Positions 36,034 through 48,824 of a DNA stretch of 64,000 nucleotides are shown here, piece by piece (positions within the stretch are counted from its first letter, which is position 1; each line of letters begins with the position of its first letter). Position numbers and translations under genes: made by a program. This DNA is from Oleiharenicola lentus (lineage in GTDB: Bacteria; Verrucomicrobiota; Verrucomicrobiia; Opitutales; Opitutaceae), in NCBI RefSeq assembly GCF_004118375.1, contig NZ_SDHX01000001.1:1739693-1803692 (forward strand). The letters are read 5' to 3'. A model generated the notes under the pieces. It did no database searches. It was given only the letters and a program-made list of their open reading frames with translations, and had not been told where the DNA came from.

Positions 36034-36463
36034 CACCGCTAGAAATGCGGACGGGACAGGGAGTTGGCAACGAAAGACTATGGCCCGGCGGGCGGCCGGC
36101 CGCCGGGCCGCGGGAGAAAGGAGAAAGGAGAAGGGAGAAAGGAGGAGGGAGCAGGGAGGATGGCACTTGCACGGCGGTCACAGACCGCCGCTACAGGGGT
36201 TGATCCCCTTCTGCTACATCCCTTCTCCTTATACCAAATGCCCGTAGTTTTTGGACTTTTGTCATCGCGAGGCCCGCAAGGAGGGCCGTGGCGATCCAGT
36301 CCCTCGACCGGCTCGGGACCTTGAGTGGTTCGACTTGGCTCACCTCCCTGAGCCAGTGGAAGGGCTTGTCGAAACGGCGGCAAAGTGGTCGTCCCCTGAC
36401 CACGCTTTCACCTGCGGTTGATGCGCGGCTGCAACGCTTATGAATGTGCTCCAAAGCGCCGCA
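36034..36463. other. Repeat-filled region upstream of rfbF
   Basis: No gene is supported in these 430 bp. They contain repeat copy A (36082-36196, listed separately). An element around 36255-36300 has GTCATCGCGAGG and GTGGCGATCCAG. At about 36335-36385 lies a GGGCTTGTCGAAACGG-type dispersed sequence; a related one occurs near 44525-44562. The promoter of the rfbF operon should be here but could not be fixed. Confidence 0.55.
36082..36196. repeat. GC-hairpin/heptamer/hairpin repeat, copy A
   Basis: The order is a GC-rich stem (GGCCCGGCG at 36082-36090 with CGCCGGGCC at 36101-36109), six 7-bp units of the GAGAAGG type (36114-36155), then a tail with an 8-bp stem (CGGCGGTC-ACA-GACCGCCG). The last 56 bp (36141-36196) are identical to 37511-37566. 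Copy B, in the same orientation, lies on the other side of the vapBC pair. Confidence 0.88.
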
Positions 36464-37176: not shown

Positions 37177-37365
37177 GGAGTGCATCATGATGTCGCCAAT
37201 AATGACCTGTCAAGATGCTCAGCCTTTCGGTGGGGCGGTCGACCAGAGGAGGGTGGAGCAGGGCTTGGCCGATGGGGCGGCGAGCCGGGCGGCAAGAGTC
37301 GACCATGCCTCAGACCAAGGCGCTCCAACACGGATGGATCCGGGATTTTCGGACAAGGAGGTCAC

Positions 37366-37409
37366 CGAAGGATGAGCGAAGGATCCCCGAAGGATGACCG
37401 AAGGATGAA
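37366..37409. repeat. Four tandem 11-bp units (CGAAGGATGAC type)
   Basis: Units are CGAAGGATGAG, CGAAGGATCCC, CGAAGGATGAC and CGAAGGATGAA. A similar 11-bp array (AGAAAGGATCC type, five units) lies at 48770-48824. In both places the same 33-bp block is close by. Confidence 0.85.
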
Positions 37410-37468: not shown

Positions 37469-37566
37469 CCGCGGCCCGGCGGCCGGCAGGCCGCCGGGCC
37501 GCGGGAGAAGGGAGGAGGGAGCAGGGAGGATGGCACTTGCACGGCGGTCACAGACCGCCGCTACAG
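37469..37566. repeat. GC-hairpin/heptamer/hairpin repeat, copy B
   Basis: A perfect 16-bp stem (37469-37484 with 37489-37504, loop GGCA) is followed by 7-bp units GAGAAGG, GAGGAGG, GAGCAGG (37505-37525). The tail is identical over 56 bp to copy A at 36141-36196. Confidence 0.88.
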
Positions 37567-37590: not shown

Positions 37591-40500
37591 TTACCGGGCG
37601 CGGACACCGAGCTTCCAGAGGAATTCGATGAAGGCGCTGCGGCGGAGGTAGCGGAGCAGGGTGGGGTTCGTTTCCAGTACCTCAGGTGGGAATGGCCGGC
37701 CGAAGGTGCGCTCGCGGAGGCGGGTGATCTCGGCCTGGCCGACGGAGTGCATCTGGGCGCTGGTTTTCTGGGCCGAGTGGATGCGGAAACAGGCGAGGAA
37801 GTAGGGCACGCGCACGATCTTCGCCCCGGCGGCCTGGAAACGCAGCAACAGGTCCCAATCCATCGCGAACTTGAACGACGGGTTGATGCCCCCGACCTTG
37901 TCCCAGATGCGCCGGCGCCAAAACATCGTTTCCTGCGGGACGAAGTCGTTCAGCCGGAGCACCTCGGGATCATGTTTGGGCAGAAACCAGCGGCCGATCT
38001 CCTGCGAGTTTTCATCCACCAGGATCCGGTGCCCGTAGATCACGTCCACGTCGGGATGCTTCGCGAAGTAATCCACCACATAACGAAGGGCGCCGGGAAC
38101 ATAGAAATCGTCGGAGTTGATCCACGCCATGAGATCGTCGGGCTCGCCGCTTGTTTTTGCGAAAGCTTTGGCGATGGCGTCGGCCTGGCCGGAGTCAGGC
38201 TCGCTGCTCCAGGCCACGAGGCGGGCTCGGGCCGGAGGCGGGAGACGGGAGGCCGGAGGCTGGAGAAGGGAATCGGATTCACTTGTTATATACTCTCCGG
38301 TCTCCGGTCTCCGGCCTCCAGCCTCCGTAGCTACGCGCTCGATGAGCGCCGCGCTGCCATCCGAAGACCCGCCATCCTGCACGACGTAGTCACAGGCGAC
38401 GCCGGATTGCTCGAGCACGCTGCGCATGGTCTCGGACAGGAATCGCGCGTGATTGAAGGAGGGCGTGACCAGGGAGAGTTTCGGTGTCGGAACGCCGGCC
38501 GGTGAAGAGGGGAAGTTTTCTCCCATCAGCGGCCGAGGGGCATGCACCGGGTGTCCCGGCATCTGGAAAAACATCAGCTCGCGCCAGTCCCCGCCCCGCA
38601 GCCAAAGCGGCAGCAAGGCCCGGCTGATCGTGGTGGGCTGATTGAAAAACGGGTGCCAGGTCCCGTCGCCGAGCTGGGCTTCCACCTGCACTGCATAACT
38701 GCCGGCAGGCAGCACGCCCCGGATTTCGAAGCCGGTGTTCGCATCGGGAGCCTCGGGCAGCGTGGCTTTGACATCCGGACGGGGCAGTCCGGTGACGCCC
38801 ACTAGCACGCGATCGCCGGCCCGCAGGCGGACGCTTCGGATGGCCGTGCCGTCGCCGGAAAAGCACCACCCCCGGGCAATGAGGCAGCGCGGCAAACGGC
38901 TCCAGTCGGACGGTTGCTCGAGGTTGAAGCGCAACTGAGCTCGTCCCACCGGGGTCTCGGCCGGCGGAACGGCGAGTTGATAGCCGTCTCCCTCGAGGGA
39001 AAACTGCGGGTGGTGGAATTCGCGCGCGGCCGGGGCCGGCACGGGTGTGGGGGCCTGCGGATCGCGCCACGATTGATTCACCTCAACCTGGGCCGAGGCG
39101 CAAACGCGGTGAAAGAGTCCGCGAGATCGCAGCTGACGCAAAAACGGGAGCCACGGAGCGGTCGCATCGGTTTGGAGCGAAAGCAACAGGGAGCGCTTGA
39201 TCGCGATGCAACGCGGGGAAACGGCATCCACCTCCCGGTTGCAGCGCAGCGAACCATGGTAGCCGTCACTGGCCGCGTGGAAACCGCGCAGCAGGGAGCA
39301 GGGGCCCACGGCCCCGGCCTCATAGACCAGGCCTTCCTTCGCGAGGAGGACGGGCGCGACGCAGCCGGAGTCGGGCAACGCGGCGAGAGCCACCAGCTCG
39401 GCCAGAGCGATCGGCGCGCGCCACCCCACGTCGGGCGTGTGGCAGACGATCACCTCGGCCTGGCTCCGCTCGGCGAGCGCTCGCAGGCGCGCGGGCAAGT
39501 TGTCGGAGGAATCCTGGCTGAACACCTCGTGGGTCGGAGGCTGCGGGACGCGCAGCCGCACCCGGTGTCCTCCGGCGGGTTCGGCCTGCCGCGGATCGCC
39601 GATGCGCCGGAGGTGGGCTTGCACGGCGCGCGCCTGCTTCTCGTCCATGTTGCCCTTGATGTTGCCGGACAAGGCACTGGACCCGGCGGCCTGCCGCCAG
39701 TGGTAGAGCATGCGGGGAATGTGGCCGATGCGGCGGGTGCGCTCGCTCACGCGCAGCATGAACTCGAAGTCCTGCACGCCATCGAAGACCGGATCAAAGC
39801 CGCCTACGTCGCGCGCCACGGTCGTGCGCACGCAGAGGGCGTGACCAACATACATCACGCCGCGGAAAAATTCCGGCGAGAAGTCCGGCTTGAGCAGGGG
39901 CAGCACGCGCTGGCCGTCCGCGGTGATTTTGTCTTCGTCCGAGTAAAGCGCATCCCATTCCGGTTCACGTCGGAGCCGGGCGGCGAACTCGCTCAGGGCG
40001 TGGGGTCGCAACCGGTCGTCGTGATCGAGCAGCAGGATGAATTCACCGCGGGCCAGCGCGAGGGCATCATTGGTGGCGCGACTGATGCCGCCGTTCTCCG
40101 TTCGGACCTTGAGCCGGATGCGCGGGTCGCGCGCCGCCGCCGTTTCCAGGATTCGGGTGATCTCGGCGGAAGCCGAGGCGTCATCGACCACGCAGAGTTC
40201 CCAGTGGCCGTGGTGCTGCTGAGCGACCGACGCAAGACAGGCTTCGAGGTCGGTGGCCTGCGGTCGGTAGACCGGTAACAGCACGGAGAAAAGAGGACCC
40301 GGGGCCGCGGCTTGCACCGGCGCCGGAGGATCGGGATCGTGCCGGGCGGCCCAGGCCGGGTAGTCGCGCCAGTCGAGCGCCCCGCGCGGGAGATCCGCCT
40401 CGGTCAGCGTCAGGAAGGGGATCAGCGTGCCTTGTTCGACCACCGCACAGAGTTCGACCGGTTGGGCGAAGCACGAGCGGTCGAGTTCGAGGCTGAACCC

Positions 40501-41628
40501 GGTATAGAGGGCGCGGGCATCGCCCTGGTGGTGCTGCTGGACGTCGGGGCGGGCGATCAGCCCGGAGCAGGTCCACAGGGCGTCGTCGCGCTGGATGGCG
40601 GCGACGCCTTGGGGACCGGGGTAGGTGAAGGGGAAACACCAGCCGGAAAGGCTCAAGACGCCGGGTCTTTCCGTGGACCAGCGGACTTCCTCCAGGCGGG
40701 TCTCCACTTTCGTCAGGGAAACCGACCAGCCCGTCATTTCGATTTTCAGCAGCCTTTCTGCGAGCGTGCGGATGAGGCCGAGGCGGGCGGGCGACACGCG
40801 CTGGAGGTAAGCGGCGGTGTTGTGGGTGGACTCCAGCTGCCATTGCCGCAGCCAGAAATACAGGTGCCAAACGAGGCCTGGGGAGGCGGGCAGGGCGTGG
40901 GGCAGGTCCAGGTCGGGACGCTCGCGCAGGAGACTGGACAGCACGCGGAAACGCACCGCGTCTTCCGCAAAAAAATGGGTGCGGCGCGCAAATTCCGCAT
41001 CGATCAGCCGGACGGTGCCGTCGCCTCCGACCAGCAGATTGGACGGAAGAAAATCGCCGTTCGTCCACCGGGTGGCGGCGGGCGCGGCGGTGAGGGCGGA
41101 GTAGAGCGCGGGCAACAACGTATCGGTCAGCAGTGCGCGTTCATTCGGTTGCCAGTTGGGCAGGGCGAGCAGTTCTGCGGTCCATTGCTGCCACTCCGCT
41201 TGACGGGCCCCTTCGCTGGAAGGCTGCTCGGTTGCGGCGAGCGCACGCGAAACAGTGGCGAGGGCCACGAGGATGGTCTCGTCGGTATATAGCCTGGTTC
41301 TGACGGCCTCATCCAGCGGCGTCCCGGCAAAATATTCCTCCGCGAGCACTTCGCCGCCGCTCACCCGTTCGTGGAAGCACGGGCGGGGGATGATGGCGGG
41401 ACAGGCGGCGGCCAGCGCGGCGTGATTCTGCGGCAAACGGCCCAGGGAAGCGGCGAGCGTGAGCTTGACCGACGTCCCATCGGGCCGGGTGGCCCGCCAG
41501 CCGGTGCGTACTTGATCGGGCCGGCGGTCGGCATTGCCGGAAGCCAGGGCTTGCGGCGGCGGCGTGGAGGCGAGCAGGCCGCGGGCAACCAACTCGGGGA
41601 AAATCACGTCGATGGAGGGCGCGCTCAT
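37591..41628 (-). CDS. 1345-residue multidomain glycosyltransferase with kinase-like N-terminus
   Basis: The domain order is unusual. Residues ~1-300 look like an aminoglycoside-phosphotransferase-type kinase fold (WTNGDFLPSNLL then VRLIDAEFA as catalytic and metal loops, ~188-213). A GWCF module follows at ~325-410. A family 2 glycosyltransferase spans ~445-690 (FSVLLPVYRPQ, VVDDASAS, LLLDHDDRLRP). After a linker come a second GWCF module (~915-1000) and a second family 2 domain (~1048-1340; LSLVTPSFNHARF, VVQDGGSSDGS, AWINSDDFYVPGA). Residues ~1101-1133, inside the last domain before VAWSSEPDSGQAD, are encoded by an inverted heptamer repeat and look like an insertion. The enzyme probably adds two sugars to a glycan. 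Confidence 0.87.
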   Translation of the reverse strand: MSAPSIDVIFPELVARGLLASTPPPQALASGNADRRPDQVRTGWRATRPDGTSVKLTLAASLGRLPQNHAALAAACPAIIPRPCFHERVSGGEVLAEEYFAGTPLDEAVRTRLYTDETILVALATVSRALAATEQPSSEGARQAEWQQWTAELLALPNWQPNERALLTDTLLPALYSALTAAPAATRWTNGDFLPSNLLVGGDGTVRLIDAEFARRTHFFAEDAVRFRVLSSLLRERPDLDLPHALPASPGLVWHLYFWLRQWQLESTHNTAAYLQRVSPARLGLIRTLAERLLKIEMTGWSVSLTKVETRLEEVRWSTERPGVLSLSGWCFPFTYPGPQGVAAIQRDDALWTCSGLIARPDVQQHHQGDARALYTGFSLELDRSCFAQPVELCAVVEQGTLIPFLTLTEADLPRGALDWRDYPAWAARHDPDPPAPVQAAAPGPLFSVLLPVYRPQATDLEACLASVAQQHHGHWELCVVDDASASAEITRILETAAARDPRIRLKVRTENGGISRATNDALALARGEFILLLDHDDRLRPHALSEFAARLRREPEWDALYSDEDKITADGQRVLPLLKPDFSPEFFRGVMYVGHALCVRTTVARDVGGFDPVFDGVQDFEFMLRVSERTRRIGHIPRMLYHWRQAAGSSALSGNIKGNMDEKQARAVQAHLRRIGDPRQAEPAGGHRVRLRVPQPPTHEVFSQDSSDNLPARLRALAERSQAEVIVCHTPDVGWRAPIALAELVALAALPDSGCVAPVLLAKEGLVYEAGAVGPCSLLRGFHAASDGYHGSLRCNREVDAVSPRCIAIKRSLLLSLQTDATAPWLPFLRQLRSRGLFHRVCASAQVEVNQSWRDPQAPTPVPAPAAREFHHPQFSLEGDGYQLAVPPAETPVGRAQLRFNLEQPSDWSRLPRCLIARGWCFSGDGTAIRSVRLRAGDRVLVGVTGLPRPDVKATLPEAPDANTGFEIRGVLPAGSYAVQVEAQLGDGTWHPFFNQPTTISRALLPLWLRGGDWRELMFFQMPGHPVHAPRPLMGENFPSSPAGVPTPKLSLVTPSFNHARFLSETMRSVLEQSGVACDYVVQDGGSSDGSAALIERVATEAGGRRPETGEYITSESDSLLQPPASRLPPPARARLVAWSSEPDSGQADAIAKAFAKTSGEPDDLMAWINSDDFYVPGALRYVVDYFAKHPDVDVIYGHRILVDENSQEIGRWFLPKHDPEVLRLNDFVPQETMFWRRRIWDKVGGINPSFKFAMDWDLLLRFQAAGAKIVRVPYFLACFRIHSAQKTSAQMHSVGQAEITRLRERTFGRPFPPEVLETNPTLLRYLRRSAFIEFLWKLGVRAR
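38231..38328. repeat. In-frame inverted heptamer element inside the 1345-residue glycosyltransferase gene
   Basis: Five GCCGGAG-type 7-bp units (38231-38265) and five TCTCCGG-type units (38294-38328) face each other around an AT-rich centre. The frame stays open and encodes roughly residues 1101-1133 (TEAGGRRPETGEY ... QPPASRLPPPA). The peptide resembles one in the Wzt-like protein encoded by 43203-43307. Confidence 0.9.
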
Positions 41629-41639
41629 GGGGAGGGCGG

Positions 41640-42656
41640 TCAGGAGGCGCGAACGAAGAAGCTCGGCGCGAACGGATGCGCGGCGCCGGCGGTCGCCATG
41701 GCCCGATAGCGGGTCTGCAAAGCGCGCTGAAACATCGTGTCCAAAGGAGAGCCGTCGTAGCCGTTGTGCTCCGGCGGAACGTCGTGGGCGGCGAGCCAGG
41801 CATTCAAATTTGCGCCGTTCTCACCGAAGGCGATGATCTGCTCCGGCAGTTTGTAGTCGGGGAAGGCGCCGAAAAACTCGATCCGGGTGAAACCGGCCGC
41901 TTGCAGCAGGTCCCGAAGTTCCGATTGCGAATAAGTGAAGGCCTGCAGCCGGCCGTGTCCGGCTTCGTCCCACCGCCGGCGGGCGAGGGCAGCGGGCAGG
42001 CAGCCGACGTAAGGCACACCGAGGTGGTCGTCGGGACACCCGAGGAGATATTTCAGGCCGAGCCGGTTTTCGATCCCGAGAACAAGCGAGCCGCCCGGGG
42101 CCAGTTCCCGCCGGATCTTGACGAGAAACTCCCGTTGCCGCTCCTGTGGGTCGGTTTGCTGTTGGAATGCGCCGACCCATTCCAGCACGCCGATGGCGCA
42201 GATGATCGCGAAAGGCGTTTCGAAGCGAATGTCGAAGTAGTCGGCGCCAATGCTGGCGAGCCGGGACCGCACGCCGTCCTGTCCGGCCGCGGCGTGGATG
42301 AAAGCGAGGCGCTCGGCCACGGGCTCGAGGGCAACGACCGGGCGTTCTGCGGCGAGGACCCGGGCGATCTGGCCCCAGCCGGCACCGATCTCGAGCACCG
42401 GCCCGGCCCCCGACGGGAGCACGTCGGCGAAGAAGGCCGTGCGCCGGGGCGACGTGATGATCTGATGCAACCAAAGTTTGGCCGCAGCGTAACGCACCTG
42501 CACGGCTTCGCGCCAGGGACGACCGATTTCGATTTCGCGGATCAAGTCGAGCAGGTCGGCCGAGGGTGTGTCCCGGAAACCGTCCTCCCGGGGAGCGTTG
42601 AATGTTTGGCCGCCCTCCAGCGTGACACGGCGGTCGCGATGAACGAAGGCGATCAT
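41640..42656 (-). CDS. SAM-dependent methyltransferase-like protein
   Basis: This 338-residue protein has motif I VLEIGAGWGQIARVLA (~87-102), an acidic residue after VVALEP, and the methyltransferase pattern ICAIGVLEWV ... LAPGGSLVLGIENR. Its N-terminal ~70 residues are extra. It overlaps the Wzt-like gene (ATGA at 42653-42656) and precedes the large glycosyltransferase by 11 bp. It may cap or modify the exported glycan. In ABC-exported O-antigens such caps can set chain length, but nothing here proves that. Confidence 0.82.
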   Translation of the reverse strand: MIAFVHRDRRVTLEGGQTFNAPREDGFRDTPSADLLDLIREIEIGRPWREAVQVRYAAAKLWLHQIITSPRRTAFFADVLPSGAGPVLEIGAGWGQIARVLAAERPVVALEPVAERLAFIHAAAGQDGVRSRLASIGADYFDIRFETPFAIICAIGVLEWVGAFQQQTDPQERQREFLVKIRRELAPGGSLVLGIENRLGLKYLLGCPDDHLGVPYVGCLPAALARRRWDEAGHGRLQAFTYSQSELRDLLQAAGFTRIEFFGAFPDYKLPEQIIAFGENGANLNAWLAAHDVPPEHNGYDGSPLDTMFQRALQTRYRAMATAGAAHPFAPSFFVRAS

Positions 42657-44128
42657 GCCGGACGTTGGGCGCTCGCCGGCATCTTGACCTCGATCGTCGT
42701 CGGGCAGTGCGCGAGGCCGAAGGATTTGTCGCGCGGCATCACGTCGAACCGAATGCTGTCGTAGCGGCGGTGGATCACCTGGACCTCACCATTCACCAGC
42801 CGCACCCAGCCGAGGGAGATGAAATAGACGCCGGCCTGCACGTTGAGCTGCACCTCGAAGCGGACCTCGACCCGGCCCCCGGGTGGGACGGAGGGCGGGG
42901 ACTGGTTTTGGAAATAGGTGTTGGTGCCGTAGATTTCCTGGCCGCGGACATCCTTGATCGTGAGGGCGTAGATGGGATCGGGGATGGTTTGGGCGGCCAA
43001 GCATGACAGGCGCACGCGGATCCGACTGCCCGCAGGGAAGGCGAGGCGGGGCTGGTCGTCGGCATCGGTCAGCGTGACGGTCTCGATCCGGCCCATTTCG
43101 CCGCCATAGGCGTATTCCTTGTCGGAGATTTGTTGGTGGGAGCGTTCCTCGGTGAGGAGGTTTTCCGAGGCCGACGCCGCGAGGTCGGAGGCGAGGAGGG
43201 AAGCCGGAGCGGGGAGGCTGGAGGCGGGAGGCTGGGCACCGGCTGATTCGGAAGAATTAGTCCCGTCGATTGCTTCTCCGGAGTGCGGTCTCCCTTCTCC
43301 GGTCTCCGTTCGCTGCCGCAGCGCGGCGAGGTCGTCGCGAATCGCTTCCACGCCGTGCGGGCTGGTGATGAGCTTCGTGTAGATGTTGGTGACGTCGTTG
43401 GGCGAGCCCTTGAGCAGCACCTCGCCGCGCTCGAGCAGGACGGCGGTGCGGCACATGCGTTTCACCGCGTTGGTGTCGTGGGAGACGAAGATGATCGTGC
43501 GGCCTTCCTTGAGCATTTGCTCGAGCGTGGCGTGGCACTTGAATTGGAACCGGGCATCGCCGACCGCGAGGGCCTCGTCGATAATGAGGATGTCGGCGTC
43601 CACGTGCACACACACGGCGAACGCCAGCCGCAGCGTCATGCCGCTGGAGTAGGTGCGGACCGGCTGGTCGATGAATTCGCCGATGCCCGAGTAGGCGACG
43701 ATGGCGTCGAATTTCTGGGCAATCTCCGGCTTGGTCAGGCCGAGGATTGCGGCGTTGAGGTGGATGTTTTCACGGCCGGTGAAGTCAGGATTGAAACCGC
43801 TGCCCAGCTCCAGCAGGGCGGCCACGCGGCCGTGGACGGCGATGGTGCCGGTCGAGGGCTGGACCGTGCCGGCGATCATCTGGAGGAGGGTGCTCTTGCC
43901 CGCGCCGTTGCGGCCGATGATGCCGAGGCACTCGCCGCGGGTGATGGCGAGGGAGATTGCCTTCACGGCGGTGAACTGGCGGGTCGCCGCCGCCGGTTTG
44001 CCGCCCGACCAGAGCCGGCGCAGCGGCGCCATCAGGCGCGCGGCCGGGTCGTCCCAGATGGTGTAGGTCTTGGTGACGCCGTGCAGGGAGATGACGGTCT
44101 CGGAGGGGGATTCCTCGGCAGAAGGCAT
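42653..44128 (-). CDS. wzt: Wzt-like ABC transporter ATPase with C-terminal glycan-binding domain
   Basis: This 491-residue protein has an N-terminal ATPase domain (~10-250): Walker A GRNGAGKST (~73-81), signature YSSGMTLRLAF (~160-170), Walker B ILIIDEALAVGDARF and H-loop VSHDTN. Residues ~335-475 form a beta-sandwich like the Wzt C-terminal domain, which recognises the glycan end. Between the two lies a linker (~274-309) encoded by an inverted heptamer repeat. The matching permease (Wzm) is not found in the window. It would export a lipid-linked polysaccharide across the inner membrane. Confidence 0.9.
   Translation of the reverse strand: MPSAEESPSETVISLHGVTKTYTIWDDPAARLMAPLRRLWSGGKPAAATRQFTAVKAISLAITRGECLGIIGRNGAGKSTLLQMIAGTVQPSTGTIAVHGRVAALLELGSGFNPDFTGRENIHLNAAILGLTKPEIAQKFDAIVAYSGIGEFIDQPVRTYSSGMTLRLAFAVCVHVDADILIIDEALAVGDARFQFKCHATLEQMLKEGRTIIFVSHDTNAVKRMCRTAVLLERGEVLLKGSPNDVTNIYTKLITSPHGVEAIRDDLAALRQRTETGEGRPHSGEAIDGTNSSESAGAQPPASSLPAPASLLASDLAASASENLLTEERSHQQISDKEYAYGGEMGRIETVTLTDADDQPRLAFPAGSRIRVRLSCLAAQTIPDPIYALTIKDVRGQEIYGTNTYFQNQSPPSVPPGGRVEVRFEVQLNVQAGVYFISLGWVRLVNGEVQVIHRRYDSIRFDVMPRDKSFGLAHCPTTIEVKMPASAQRPA
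43203..43307. repeat. In-frame inverted heptamer element inside the wzt-like gene
   Basis: Five units of the GCTGGAG/GCGGGAG type (43203-43237) and five of the CTTCTCC/GGTCTCC type (43273-43307) surround an AT-richer centre. The frame stays open. It encodes about residues 274-309 (TETGEGRPHSGEA ... QPPASSLPAPAS), similar to the insert in the 1345-residue glycosyltransferase. Confidence 0.9.
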
Positions 44129-44685
44129 GACGGCGTCAGGAGAAGGGAGGAGGGAGAAGGGGGCAAGGATGGAGAGGGGCGCGCGAAGCGCGGGAGAAGG
44201 GAGGAGGGAGGAGGGAGAAGGGAGACCGGAGAGCAGTGGACAGTGAGACGGTGGCCGGTTGTGGGAGAGTGAAGGCGGAGGCGGGAGGAGGGAGGAGGGA
44301 AAAGGGAGGAGGGAAGGTGGACCGTCGGACAGTAGCCGGTCGGACGGTGGAGGGAGGCAGGAAGCCGGAGGGGGAGACCTGAAACTTGAGACCTGAAACC
44401 TGAGGTGCCGGCCCGTGCTGCCAAAGCACTTCAGTTCTCAGCCGGGTTCAGGCAGCCGAGGTGGAGCGACCTGCTCCTCAGGGCGCTTTCTGCGCAGCGG
44501 ACATCCTCAGCGCGTTGGGGAGCCGTTTCGGCAGGCTCAAGGCCCTGAGCTCGTCGAACGGGCAACGCGCGCCACCGTATGGTCGATACGGTTCTCCTTT
44601 GGGGCGTCGTTTCAACGGCTTGAGCTCAGCTCTCAGGTTTCAGCCATCAGGATTCTGCACTCGTCCACCCTCTTCTGTCCACCGG
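44129..44685. other. Repeat-rich intergenic region upstream of wzt
   Basis: These 557 bp hold no supported gene. From 44137 to about 44325 the plus strand is nearly pure purine, with 7-bp periodicity (GAGAAGG, GAGGAGG, GAGACCG units). At 44377-44404 are four units ACCTGAA/ACTTGAG, and complementary units (CTCAGCT, CTCAGGT, TTCAGCC) lie at 44625-44645. A TCGTCGAACGG-type dispersed sequence is near 44530-44562. A promoter for wzt must be here or further upstream. Confidence 0.65.
44377..44404. repeat. Four ACCTGAA-type heptamers
   Basis: Units ACCTGAA, ACTTGAG, ACCTGAA, ACCTGAG are in tandem. The same family occurs at 46000-46104 and 46731-46765. Confidence 0.8.
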
Positions 44686-45924: not shown

Positions 45925-46265
45925 GGGTTTTGCCGAGGAGAAAGCAGAAGGGAGAAGGGGGCAAGGAAGGAGAACCTGTAGAGGAAGCCTGTGGCGGAGA
46001 CCTGAGATCTGAGACCTGAGAGCTGAGACTTGAGATCTGAGATCTGAGACCTGAGATCTGAAATCTGAAAGCTGAGACCTGAGGGGTGAAACCTGAGAGC
46101 TGAAGCCAAGATATCAGGATAGCCCGCCTATTTCACACCCAGAGGTGAGGAATAGGCGCCCTGTCGGGCCGACCTTGTCGGGGCTAACCGCGACGAAGTC
46201 GCATTTGTCGGAGGCAAAACGGATATTTCTGATTCAACGTTTTTCATTGGGGTGAAATATCCGGG
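45925..46265. other. Intergenic region with heptamer array and two hairpins
   Basis: No gene is supported in these 341 bp. It contains purine heptamers near 45945-45972, the 15-unit array at 46000-46104, an 8-bp inverted repeat (CGCCTATT 46125-46132, AATAGGCG 46151-46158) and a 9-bp one (GGATATTTC 46221-46229, GAAATATCC 46254-46262). The last lies just downstream of the four-helix-bundle gene and could be its terminator. Confidence 0.6.
46000..46104. repeat. Fifteen tandem heptamers (ANCTGAG type)
   Basis: Fifteen consecutive 7-bp units of the form ACCTGAG, ATCTGAG, AGCTGAG or ATCTGAA run without interruption; only one (GGGTGAA) departs strongly. The unit length is not a multiple of three and no gene crosses it. 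Confidence 0.92.
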
Positions 46266-46637: not shown

Positions 46638-46730
46638 GATCGACGTTAACAGGATCCCTGCGGTGGCTGATCCAGGAAATGGCCACTTTTAAGGTTCCCC
46701 CTGCCTCAGATCGGCGCTCGGAGAAGCGAA

Positions 46731-46821
46731 ATCTGAAATCTGAAACGTGAGACCTGAAACCTGAGGTGGTGACTCGCCGCCACCGGTTCCAACTTCAGGT
46801 CTCAGTATTCAGCTCTCAGGT
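46731..46821. repeat. Inverted pair of ACCTGAA heptamer arrays
   Basis: Five units (ATCTGAA, ATCTGAA, ACGTGAG, ACCTGAA, ACCTGAG; 46731-46765) are followed by four complementary units (TTCAGGT, CTCAGTA, TTCAGCT, CTCAGGT; 46794-46821). The transcript can form a hairpin directly downstream of the Wzz-like gene end at 46833. Confidence 0.85.
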
Positions 46822-46832
46822 TTCGTATTCCT

Positions 46833-48245: not shown

Positions 48246-48300
48246 GGGAAGGGCGCGCGGCGCGCGCCAGATTAATTCTGAAGTTTATGTTGCAGGCTGG

Positions 48301-48412
48301 CTAGGGACTAGGAACTAGCGACTAGCGACTAGCGACTAGGGACTAGAAACTAGGAACTAGGGACTAGGGACTAGGGACTAGAAACTAGGAACTAGGAACT
48401 AGGAACTAGCGT
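48301..48412. repeat. Sixteen tandem heptamers (CTAGNRA type)
   Basis: Sixteen uninterrupted 7-bp units are present: CTAGGGA, CTAGGAA, CTAGCGA or CTAGAAA, the last being CTAGCGT. It is the longest array in the window and lies about 50 bp upstream of the Wzz-like gene start. Two more units recur at 48754-48767. Confidence 0.95.
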
Positions 48413-48635
48413 CCAGCATCCATGAAGCGGGAATGGAGGCGGTTCAATCCCGGATTGTCGGATGTGACTTGGAGGGGTCGCGGCGCAGGAGGCGCCAAGG
48501 CGCACCCGTTTAAGTTTTAAGTGGAAGTGTAAGTTTGAAGGCTGACTAGGGGCGTCTTCAACCCTTGGACGTCTCTCAGAAACTGAGGACCTGACCAGAA
48601 CCTATCTGGATTCGATCGTCATCCAACGTCCCTAC

Positions 48636-48719
48636 CGTCATCCTGAGCCTGGCGAAGGATCCAGCAGCATTATCGCCAGCGGACATCATCTTGGATCCTT
48701 CACTTCGCTCAGGATGACG
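48636..48719. repeat. GTCATCCTGAG-type inverted repeat
   Basis: The 28-nt arms at 48636-48663 and 48692-48719 pair with few mismatches (CGTCATCCTGAG ... GAAGGATCCA and its complement). Sequences of this type are known as dispersed repeats in several bacterial groups. No open frame is involved. Confidence 0.8.
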
Positions 48720-48769
48720 GGTTTCGAGAGTTTGAAGGGTTTAAAAACTCGCCCTAGCGACTGGGGACT

Positions 48770-48824
48770 AGAAAGGATCTAGAAAGGATCCAGCAAGGAT
48801 GTAGAAGGGATCCAGAAGGGATGC
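48770..48824. repeat. Five tandem 11-bp units (AGAAAGGATCC type)
   Basis: Units are AGAAAGGATCT, AGAAAGGATCC, AGCAAGGATGT, AGAAGGGATCC and AGAAGGGATGC. They follow directly on two CTAGCGA/CTGGGGA heptamers. Confidence 0.88.

Follow-up and report, generated by a model that had tools for sequence, protein, structure and literature searches.

Inverted seven-base repeats stand in frame in unrelated proteins of Oleiharenicola lentus and may belong to a dispersed repeat class

How does short repetitive DNA come to stand in open reading frame within two unrelated protein genes? The question is raised by a stretch of 64,000 nucleotides of Oleiharenicola lentus (contig NZ_SDHX01000001.1, positions 1,739,693 to 1,803,692; hereafter the window), part of a two-contig genome of 4.71 Mb, in which a glycosyltransferase (GT) gene and a Wzt-like ABC transporter ATPase gene each carry a segment of seven-base units facing inverted units of the same type. 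The closest named relatives of the Wzt protein (Opitutaceae, other Opitutia, and one unplaced Verrucomicrobiota record) suggest that the genome is of Opitutaceae type. We think it probable, if by a small measure, that both inserts are members of a class of short dispersed heptamer repeats that spreads within Opitutaceae-type chromosomes and is tolerated in genes as long as reading is not interrupted and the insertion falls in a flexible loop or linker. Arms are named R for GGAG-type heptamers and Y for their complement, and a doublet is an R arm, a spacer, and a Y arm in that order.

Two inserts of one type in two unrelated proteins

The two genes and their inserts are as follows.

37591..41628, minus strand: GT gene, 1345 aa, carrying the first insert; Pfam GT2 match at residues 448-562
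38231..38265, plus strand: R arm of the GT insert, five GGAG-type heptamers (GCCGGAG, GCGGGAG, ACGGGAG, GCCGGAG, GCTGGAG)
38266..38293, unstranded: spacer between the arms of the GT insert
38294..38327, minus strand: Y arm of the GT insert, inverted heptamers, sequence TCTCCGGTCTCCGGTCTCCGGCCTCCAGCCTCCG
42653..44128, minus strand: Wzt-like ABC transporter ATPase gene (ABC_tran and Wzt_C), carrying the second insert
43200..43230, plus strand: R arm of the Wzt insert, four GGAG cores at exact 7-nt spacing (43206-43230)
43231..43272, unstranded: spacer of the Wzt insert
43273..43310, minus strand: Y arm of the Wzt insert, degenerate, with three cores at 43290-43307

Both reading frames are open across the inserts, and the coordinates, frames, and peptides that the first-pass annotation of this DNA gave for the two in-frame inverted segments were all confirmed. 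The GT insert lies downstream of the Pfam GT2 match, in a second GT2-like part recognized through aligned homologues. Its arms, as paired by an inverted-repeat search, are 34 nt long, 82% complementary, and 27 nt apart, and it is predicted to fold as a long hairpin of ~100 bp (-54.7 kcal/mol, a value without a shuffle control). The arms of the Wzt insert are more degenerate, with none paired by the inverted-repeat search and neither called by our stricter period-7 caller. This insert occupies the interdomain linker between ABC_tran (residues 56-187) and Wzt_C (residues 339-473), as had been proposed, and an AlphaFold model built on a seven-sequence alignment (mean pLDDT, 66) scores residues 276-343, the linker that holds the insert, below 50, predicting that the linker is unordered.

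As a test against chance, GGAGNNNGGAGNNNGGAGNNNGGAG occurs 13 times in the window versus a mean of 0.00 in 100 dinucleotide shuffles, and a three-unit pattern occurs 22 times versus 0.05. The annotation had taken the inserts for the same element, and here it went too far: BLAST finds no match between them, and their origin as one copied sequence is therefore rejected. In the own-genome sample, the Wzt insert matches itself only, and the GT insert matches pieces of 27-48 nt. Judged by sequence, the two have in common their type of heptamer and the order R to Y, which makes them fellow members of a class, represented genome-wide by several unit sequences, rather than copies of a common sequence.

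Orthologues with and without the segments

Some GT match was found in 108 of 120 genomes, and homologues from 30 matching genomes were aligned at the insert site. There, 24 are continuous, 3 have a small extra segment, and 3 have a long heptamer-type insert (G000, the present genome; G095; and G111), so that the GT insert does interrupt a conserved stretch, as first described. The three long inserts share one place, and each has the R-spacer-Y layout, with units that differ. Among nine close Wzt relatives, the linker is array-like by eye in five and without an array in four, one of which (L059) still has CTCC-rich runs. The linker units are of GGAG type in the present genome, GGAG with CTCCCTC-type runs in L090, GGTGGAC type in L087 and L089, and GGAGAAA type in L086. 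Alignment of orthologues, a check suggested at the outset, has thus found insert-free versions of both proteins.

These alignments bear on the proposal that the segments belong to GT and Wzt as conserved functional parts. The single place shared by the three long GT inserts would suit it, but 24 of the 30 GT homologues have no extra segment, and 4 of the 9 Wzt relatives have no array while the others have different units. We consider the proposal very improbable, and as a general claim it is refuted by the insert-free orthologues; the segments proved to be neither conserved domain parts nor confined to these two genes. In the GT gene tree, G000 and G095 are neighbors and G111 is placed among genes without an insert (support, 95/92), which implies more than one insertion or loss. 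The Wzt tree is poorly resolved, and the number of origins is not readable from it.

Heptamer arrays across the genome

About 30% of the genome was sampled, in two ways. A 464-kb sample (the window and 20 stretches, two stretches having been chosen for holding matches) contains 19 period-7 arrays versus 0 in one Markov shuffle; other periods from 4 to 30 give at most 2 arrays each, save multiples of 7. An even sample of 58 stretches (1.16 Mb), read with a laxer period-7 caller, contains 16 such arrays, with 7 arrays of period 14 and at most 2 for each of the remaining periods that are not multiples of 3. Periods 6, 9, 12, 15, 18, and 21 give 7 to 16 arrays each in the even sample, multiples of 3 being common because coding DNA is expected to show them. 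Arrays are thus not numerous, and they cluster, with the region of the window rich in them. Unit types in this genome include GGAGNNN, GARACCT, GGGACTA, GGGAGAA, GAAAATC, and GACCACA, and the same types recur at unlinked sites. A more general pattern, GRRRSNN repeated four times, was tried over 120 family genomes and proved unspecific, a reversed control scoring similarly in most genomes, and its counts were not used. In the present genome it also matched a G/C run at a contig start; the run of C that opens contig 1 (G000 C1:1-73) is perhaps an assembly artifact.

Further heptamer arrays of the window are as follows.

36110..36158, plus strand: intergenic GGGAGAA-type array, composite repeat copy A
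37501..37528, plus strand: intergenic GGGAGAA-type array in copy B of the composite repeat, three heptamers (21 bp) short of copy A
44139..44404, plus strand: heptamer run of GGGAGAA, GGAGNNN, and GARACCT types upstream of wzt
45994..46103, plus strand: GAGACCT-type array, ~15 units
46728..46824, unstranded: GARACCT-type inverted doublet, R then Y, outside called genes
48298..48422, plus strand: GGGACTA-type array, ~16 units

The two composite copies have near-identical flanks on both sides, and their arrays differ by a gap of exactly 21 bp. The composite repeat itself (36091-36196 and 37473-37566) comprises a GC-rich hairpin, the heptamer array, and a conserved part containing the hairpin CGGCGGTCACAGACCGCCG; fragments of this conserved part recur elsewhere in the genome sample. 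On contig 2, a duplicated segment (L106, 396-720 versus 1341-1640) holds an identical mixed-unit heptamer array, with a further heptamer block in one copy only. The window also has arrays of 11-base units of CCGAAGGATGA and CTAGAAAGGAT types (37364-37408 and 48768-48822; two period-11 arrays in the 464 kb) and palindromic repeats, TCATCGCGAG...GGCGATCC and TCATCCTGAG...GAAGGATCC (36256-36310 and 48636-48722), which we presume to resemble repeats of other phyla.

Arrays inside conserved proteins

Within the sampled share of the genome, in-frame arrays stand in at least 14 proteins, GT and Wzt among them. The others are UvrA (three called arrays), PurL, a topoisomerase IV/gyrase A subunit (both arms), RecD2, a short-chain dehydrogenase, two RsmB/F methyltransferases, a TPR membrane protein, an alpha-L-rhamnosidase, a polysaccharide deacetylase, a sialate-esterase-like protein, and an iron-sulfur/DmsC-type protein. 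The census required a Pfam match, excluded Lgt, and included Wzt though the strict caller misses its arms; several array-flagged frames, such as Lgt in L221 and those of the arrays that precede wzt, were discounted because they are antisense or extend a gene upstream. The Pfam domain of the dehydrogenase is split by its array, that of the rhamnosidase falls within an immunoglobulin-like domain, and in several other proteins the array precedes the domains or stands between them.

Arrays in conserved proteins also occur across the family. We collected 30 UvrA and 29 PurL frames, those of the present genome included and L292 excluded, its longest frame being antisense. These 59 frames contain 41 period-7 arrays versus 0 in codon shuffles; periods outside the multiples of 3 or 7 give at most 2, and periods 6, 9, and 12 give 14-15 versus 6-8 in shuffles at the same threshold. 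Arrays are carried by 15 of 30 UvrA and 5 of 29 PurL frames, with seven in the UvrA frame of L244 and six in that of L251, and the unit sequences differ between family genomes. A UvrA loop, KLVRYL...LLLLDEPTTG, ranges from 7 to 37 residues among 28 sequences, and in seven of them it is filled by called arrays with different units. C exceeds G on the coding strand in 36 of the 41 arrays, which is no evidence by itself because 54 of the 59 genes show the same excess. As oriented, 34 arrays are free of stops in every frame, and 13 would carry stops in all three if reversed. Other in-frame insert peptides were seen in these proteins, of SLDDARGRTQGAPL type in PurL (L287 and L296) and of GSELARD type in the dehydrogenase (L178) and UvrA (L243), and their recurrence suggests further protein-entering repeat families.

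A 30-bp subclass and its doublets

One subclass is a sequence of 30 bp, made of four heptamers and GA, or ten codons, and can keep frame since 30 is divisible by three. It occurs at 35 places in the genome sample with at most two mismatches, a few of them within longer arrays, and its commonest exact form, GAAACCTGAAACTTGAGACCTGAAACCTGA, accounts for 3 of the 35. By inspection the unit is purine rich on one strand and not self-complementary. It translates as a QVSGLRSQVSGF-type peptide in one direction, and in the R direction the junctions between units each carry a TGA in the usual form. Three R-direction copies were seen in open frame, in the TPR membrane protein, in the topoisomerase, and in an open stretch of 99 codons in G113, a genome of the same genus, and all have lost the TGA between units 2 and 3. 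In G113 the same 30-bp sequence forms an R-to-Y doublet in open frame; a pattern allied to it was found at 9 of 313 loci, some overlapping, of which the one in G113 is the sole locus outside the present genome. The exact sequence had no match in one scan of viral contigs, a set from which the nearest relatives of the window are possibly absent.

Of the 35 copies, 16 have an inverted partner downstream and none has one upstream, giving nine doublets, always R to Y; the other 19 copies are unpartnered. The spacers, of 27 to 105 nt, are unrelated by eye (they were not scored), and no conserved interior was seen of the kind that a miniature inverted-repeat transposable element (MITE) has. The flanks of the 35 copies show no clear consensus apart from a purine after the last GA. 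Repeats of at least 4 nt within 3 nt of the copy, as a target-site duplication would leave, flank 4 of 35 copies versus a shuffled-flank mean of 2.2 and maximum of 6, and a MITE with target-site duplication was rejected for this subclass because flanking repeats are no commoner than chance.

An alternative to dispersal is pure local slippage, in which the polymerase prefers seven-base slips, each array is born independently at its site, and nothing moves. Heptanucleotides have been described as the commonest repeats of this kind in the majority of genomes, and a 7-nt length of polymerase contact has been proposed (PMC4679880). The 21-bp, unit-wise difference between the two composite copies and the variation of unit sequences between genomes are both in keeping with slippage. 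Against it, the same unit types recur at unlinked sites, one of them as a 30-bp sequence at 35 places in the sample and again in a same-genus genome, and doublets in a single order are not to be expected of slippage. We regard it as an unlikely account of the whole, if a serious one.

Movement as miniature elements of the repetitive extragenic palindrome (REP) kind, or their doublets (REPINs), mobilized by a Y1 transposase (RAYT or IS200/IS605-like), deserves consideration on account of these same doublets. REPs are palindromic and extragenic, occur as short singlets and inverted doublets, and go together with a RAYT gene. In this genome a ~30-bp sequence is found singly and in nine inverted doublets, and there are four PF01797 matches, one of them in a gene ~130 bp from an array. 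A replication-strand bias (see below) would suit single-strand transposition. Against this, the single arm is not a palindromic unit, many copies lie within genes, and the other three Y1 loci have no called array within ~1.5 kb on either side. We judge this source improbable. No inverted repeat was found around the Y1 gene of L240.

A polymerase that adds heptamers at broken ends, either telomerase-like or a defense reverse transcriptase of DRT10 type, would account for doublets that resemble two repeat-extended ends joined, with R-to-Y order and unrelated spacers. DRT10 synthesizes tandem-repeat DNA (PMC12632851), and telomeric repeats inserted at double-strand breaks are reported in vertebrates. 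However, RVT_1 has no match in the present genome, which is rated 100% complete in its two contigs, and 68 of 100 family genomes searched, some of them incomplete, likewise have none, a negative that covers this model and that a polymerase too diverged for RVT_1 would escape. On these grounds a telomerase-like reverse transcriptase source is not supported, and we hold the proposal to be extremely unlikely.

Array strand and replication

The replication part of the G-C skew at third codon positions is mostly positive from ~0.1 to 2.27 Mb of contig 1 (C1) and mostly negative elsewhere, with some stretches near zero or opposite. Replichore boundaries were set from the skew table after the arrays had been seen. 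dnaA lies at C1:3.07 Mb, away from the skew switches, and no switch was designated as the origin. The strand test covers 30 arrays outside doublets, in a partly selected set that leaves out 20 stretches picked largely from the GRRRSNN matches listed in the present genome; those stretches are therefore biased to the plus strand, and they enter the larger tables only.

Set against replichore, R arrays number 14 plus and 0 minus and Y arrays 1 plus and 15 minus, and 29 of 30 are concordant (Fisher P = 2e-7 if arrays are independent, which clustered arrays are not). Counted by stretch, concordance is 10 of 11 (P = 0.012), the exception, C1 209-216 kb, consisting of arms of doublets. Whole-genome patterns on both strands, doublet arms included, are concordant in 25 of 32 and 13 of 17 cases among the matches listed. 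A link between array strand and replication is favored, not proven.

How the arrays may arise and spread

If the inserts belong to a dispersed class, as we prefer to think, new copies may arise in replication, when an existing array serves as template for the extension of a strand end or of a single strand left exposed, by template switching or by copying coupled to single-stranded DNA. Two extended ends that meet would then produce a doublet whose spacer is unrelated. Afterwards, arrays would grow, shrink, and drift through seven-base slippage, and those that stand in proteins would serve as neutral or near-neutral linker material.

Several points weigh against this explanation. No copying enzyme was identified, and only one of the four Y1 transposase-like genes is near an array. 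The loose GGAG, GGGAGAA, and GGGACTA arrays could be explained by local slippage alone. Insert-bearing GT genes stand on two branches, a pattern open to repeated insertion and repeated loss alike. The absence of the unit-2/3 TGA from open-frame copies is shared by a copy outside called genes (C1:334581). As for the strand bias, it rests on one genome; 21 of the 30 arrays tested come from the window and the two stretches chosen for matches, evenly placed stretches alone giving 8 of 9; and it is partly confounded with gene direction, a nearest-gene rule fitting 26 of 30, although the replichore rule is correct in 4 of the 5 cases where the two conflict.

A more far-reaching form of dispersal would have replication-strand-coupled copying of heptamer units at work throughout the family, with lineage-specific units and machinery other than the usual reverse transcriptases, and would have it keep supplying in-frame linker peptides to essential proteins. 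We regard this as possible but doubtful.

The arrays offer a natural series of short repeat DNA entering conserved proteins without destroying them, as in the UvrA frame with seven called arrays, and comparison of strains would make the origin of linkers from repeat DNA testable. They also open a way to ask what makes seven-base units so frequent among the longer-unit repeats of bacteria, on which one paper offers no more than a proposal (PMC4679880) and another notes a lack of detailed study (PMC4692102).

Comparison with known repeat systems

Rickettsia palindromic elements (RPEs) are palindromic DNA of ~150 bp that stands in frame in unrelated proteins and encodes a conserved family peptide (PMC10969869). 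The likeness drawn by the first-pass annotation holds in effect, as in-frame insertion into unrelated protein genes is found here and the GT insert is a long hairpin. Unlike RPEs, the present repeats share a heptamer type only, have many single-armed copies and spacers unrelated by eye, and occur in a host of another phylum. Nor was a family-conserved palindrome of ~150 bp found: the GT hairpin is ~100 bp, it has no match to the Wzt insert, and more than half of the 30-bp copies lack a partner.

In their dispersed head-to-tail seven-base units, the arrays resemble the TAACTGA and STRR repeats. The TAACTGA heptamers of Beggiatoaceae, cyanobacteria, and others are dispersed direct repeats with variant units, some in frames and with stops in one orientation (PMC4679880). 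They have one favored unit, are mostly intergenic, and when in frame lie mostly near protein ends, whereas here there are many unit types, inverted doublets, and insertions within conserved proteins. The GGGAATC and GGGGA(T/C)T repeats of Xanthomonas and Nostoc are likewise G-rich heptamer arrays, mainly intergenic and dispersed with no preference for origin or terminus, and the available part of that account does not mention in-frame insertion into housekeeping genes (PMC4692102). Borg tandem repeats evolve fast, stand partly in frames, make disordered regions, and show a strand-related base bias (PMC9879509), but Borgs are linear extrachromosomal elements of archaea whose repeats are error free and are not described there as tied to seven bases.

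Heptamer repeats and in-frame palindromes are each known from other organisms. Among the matches listed by literature searches that mostly did not reach subscription papers, there is no account of the two combined.

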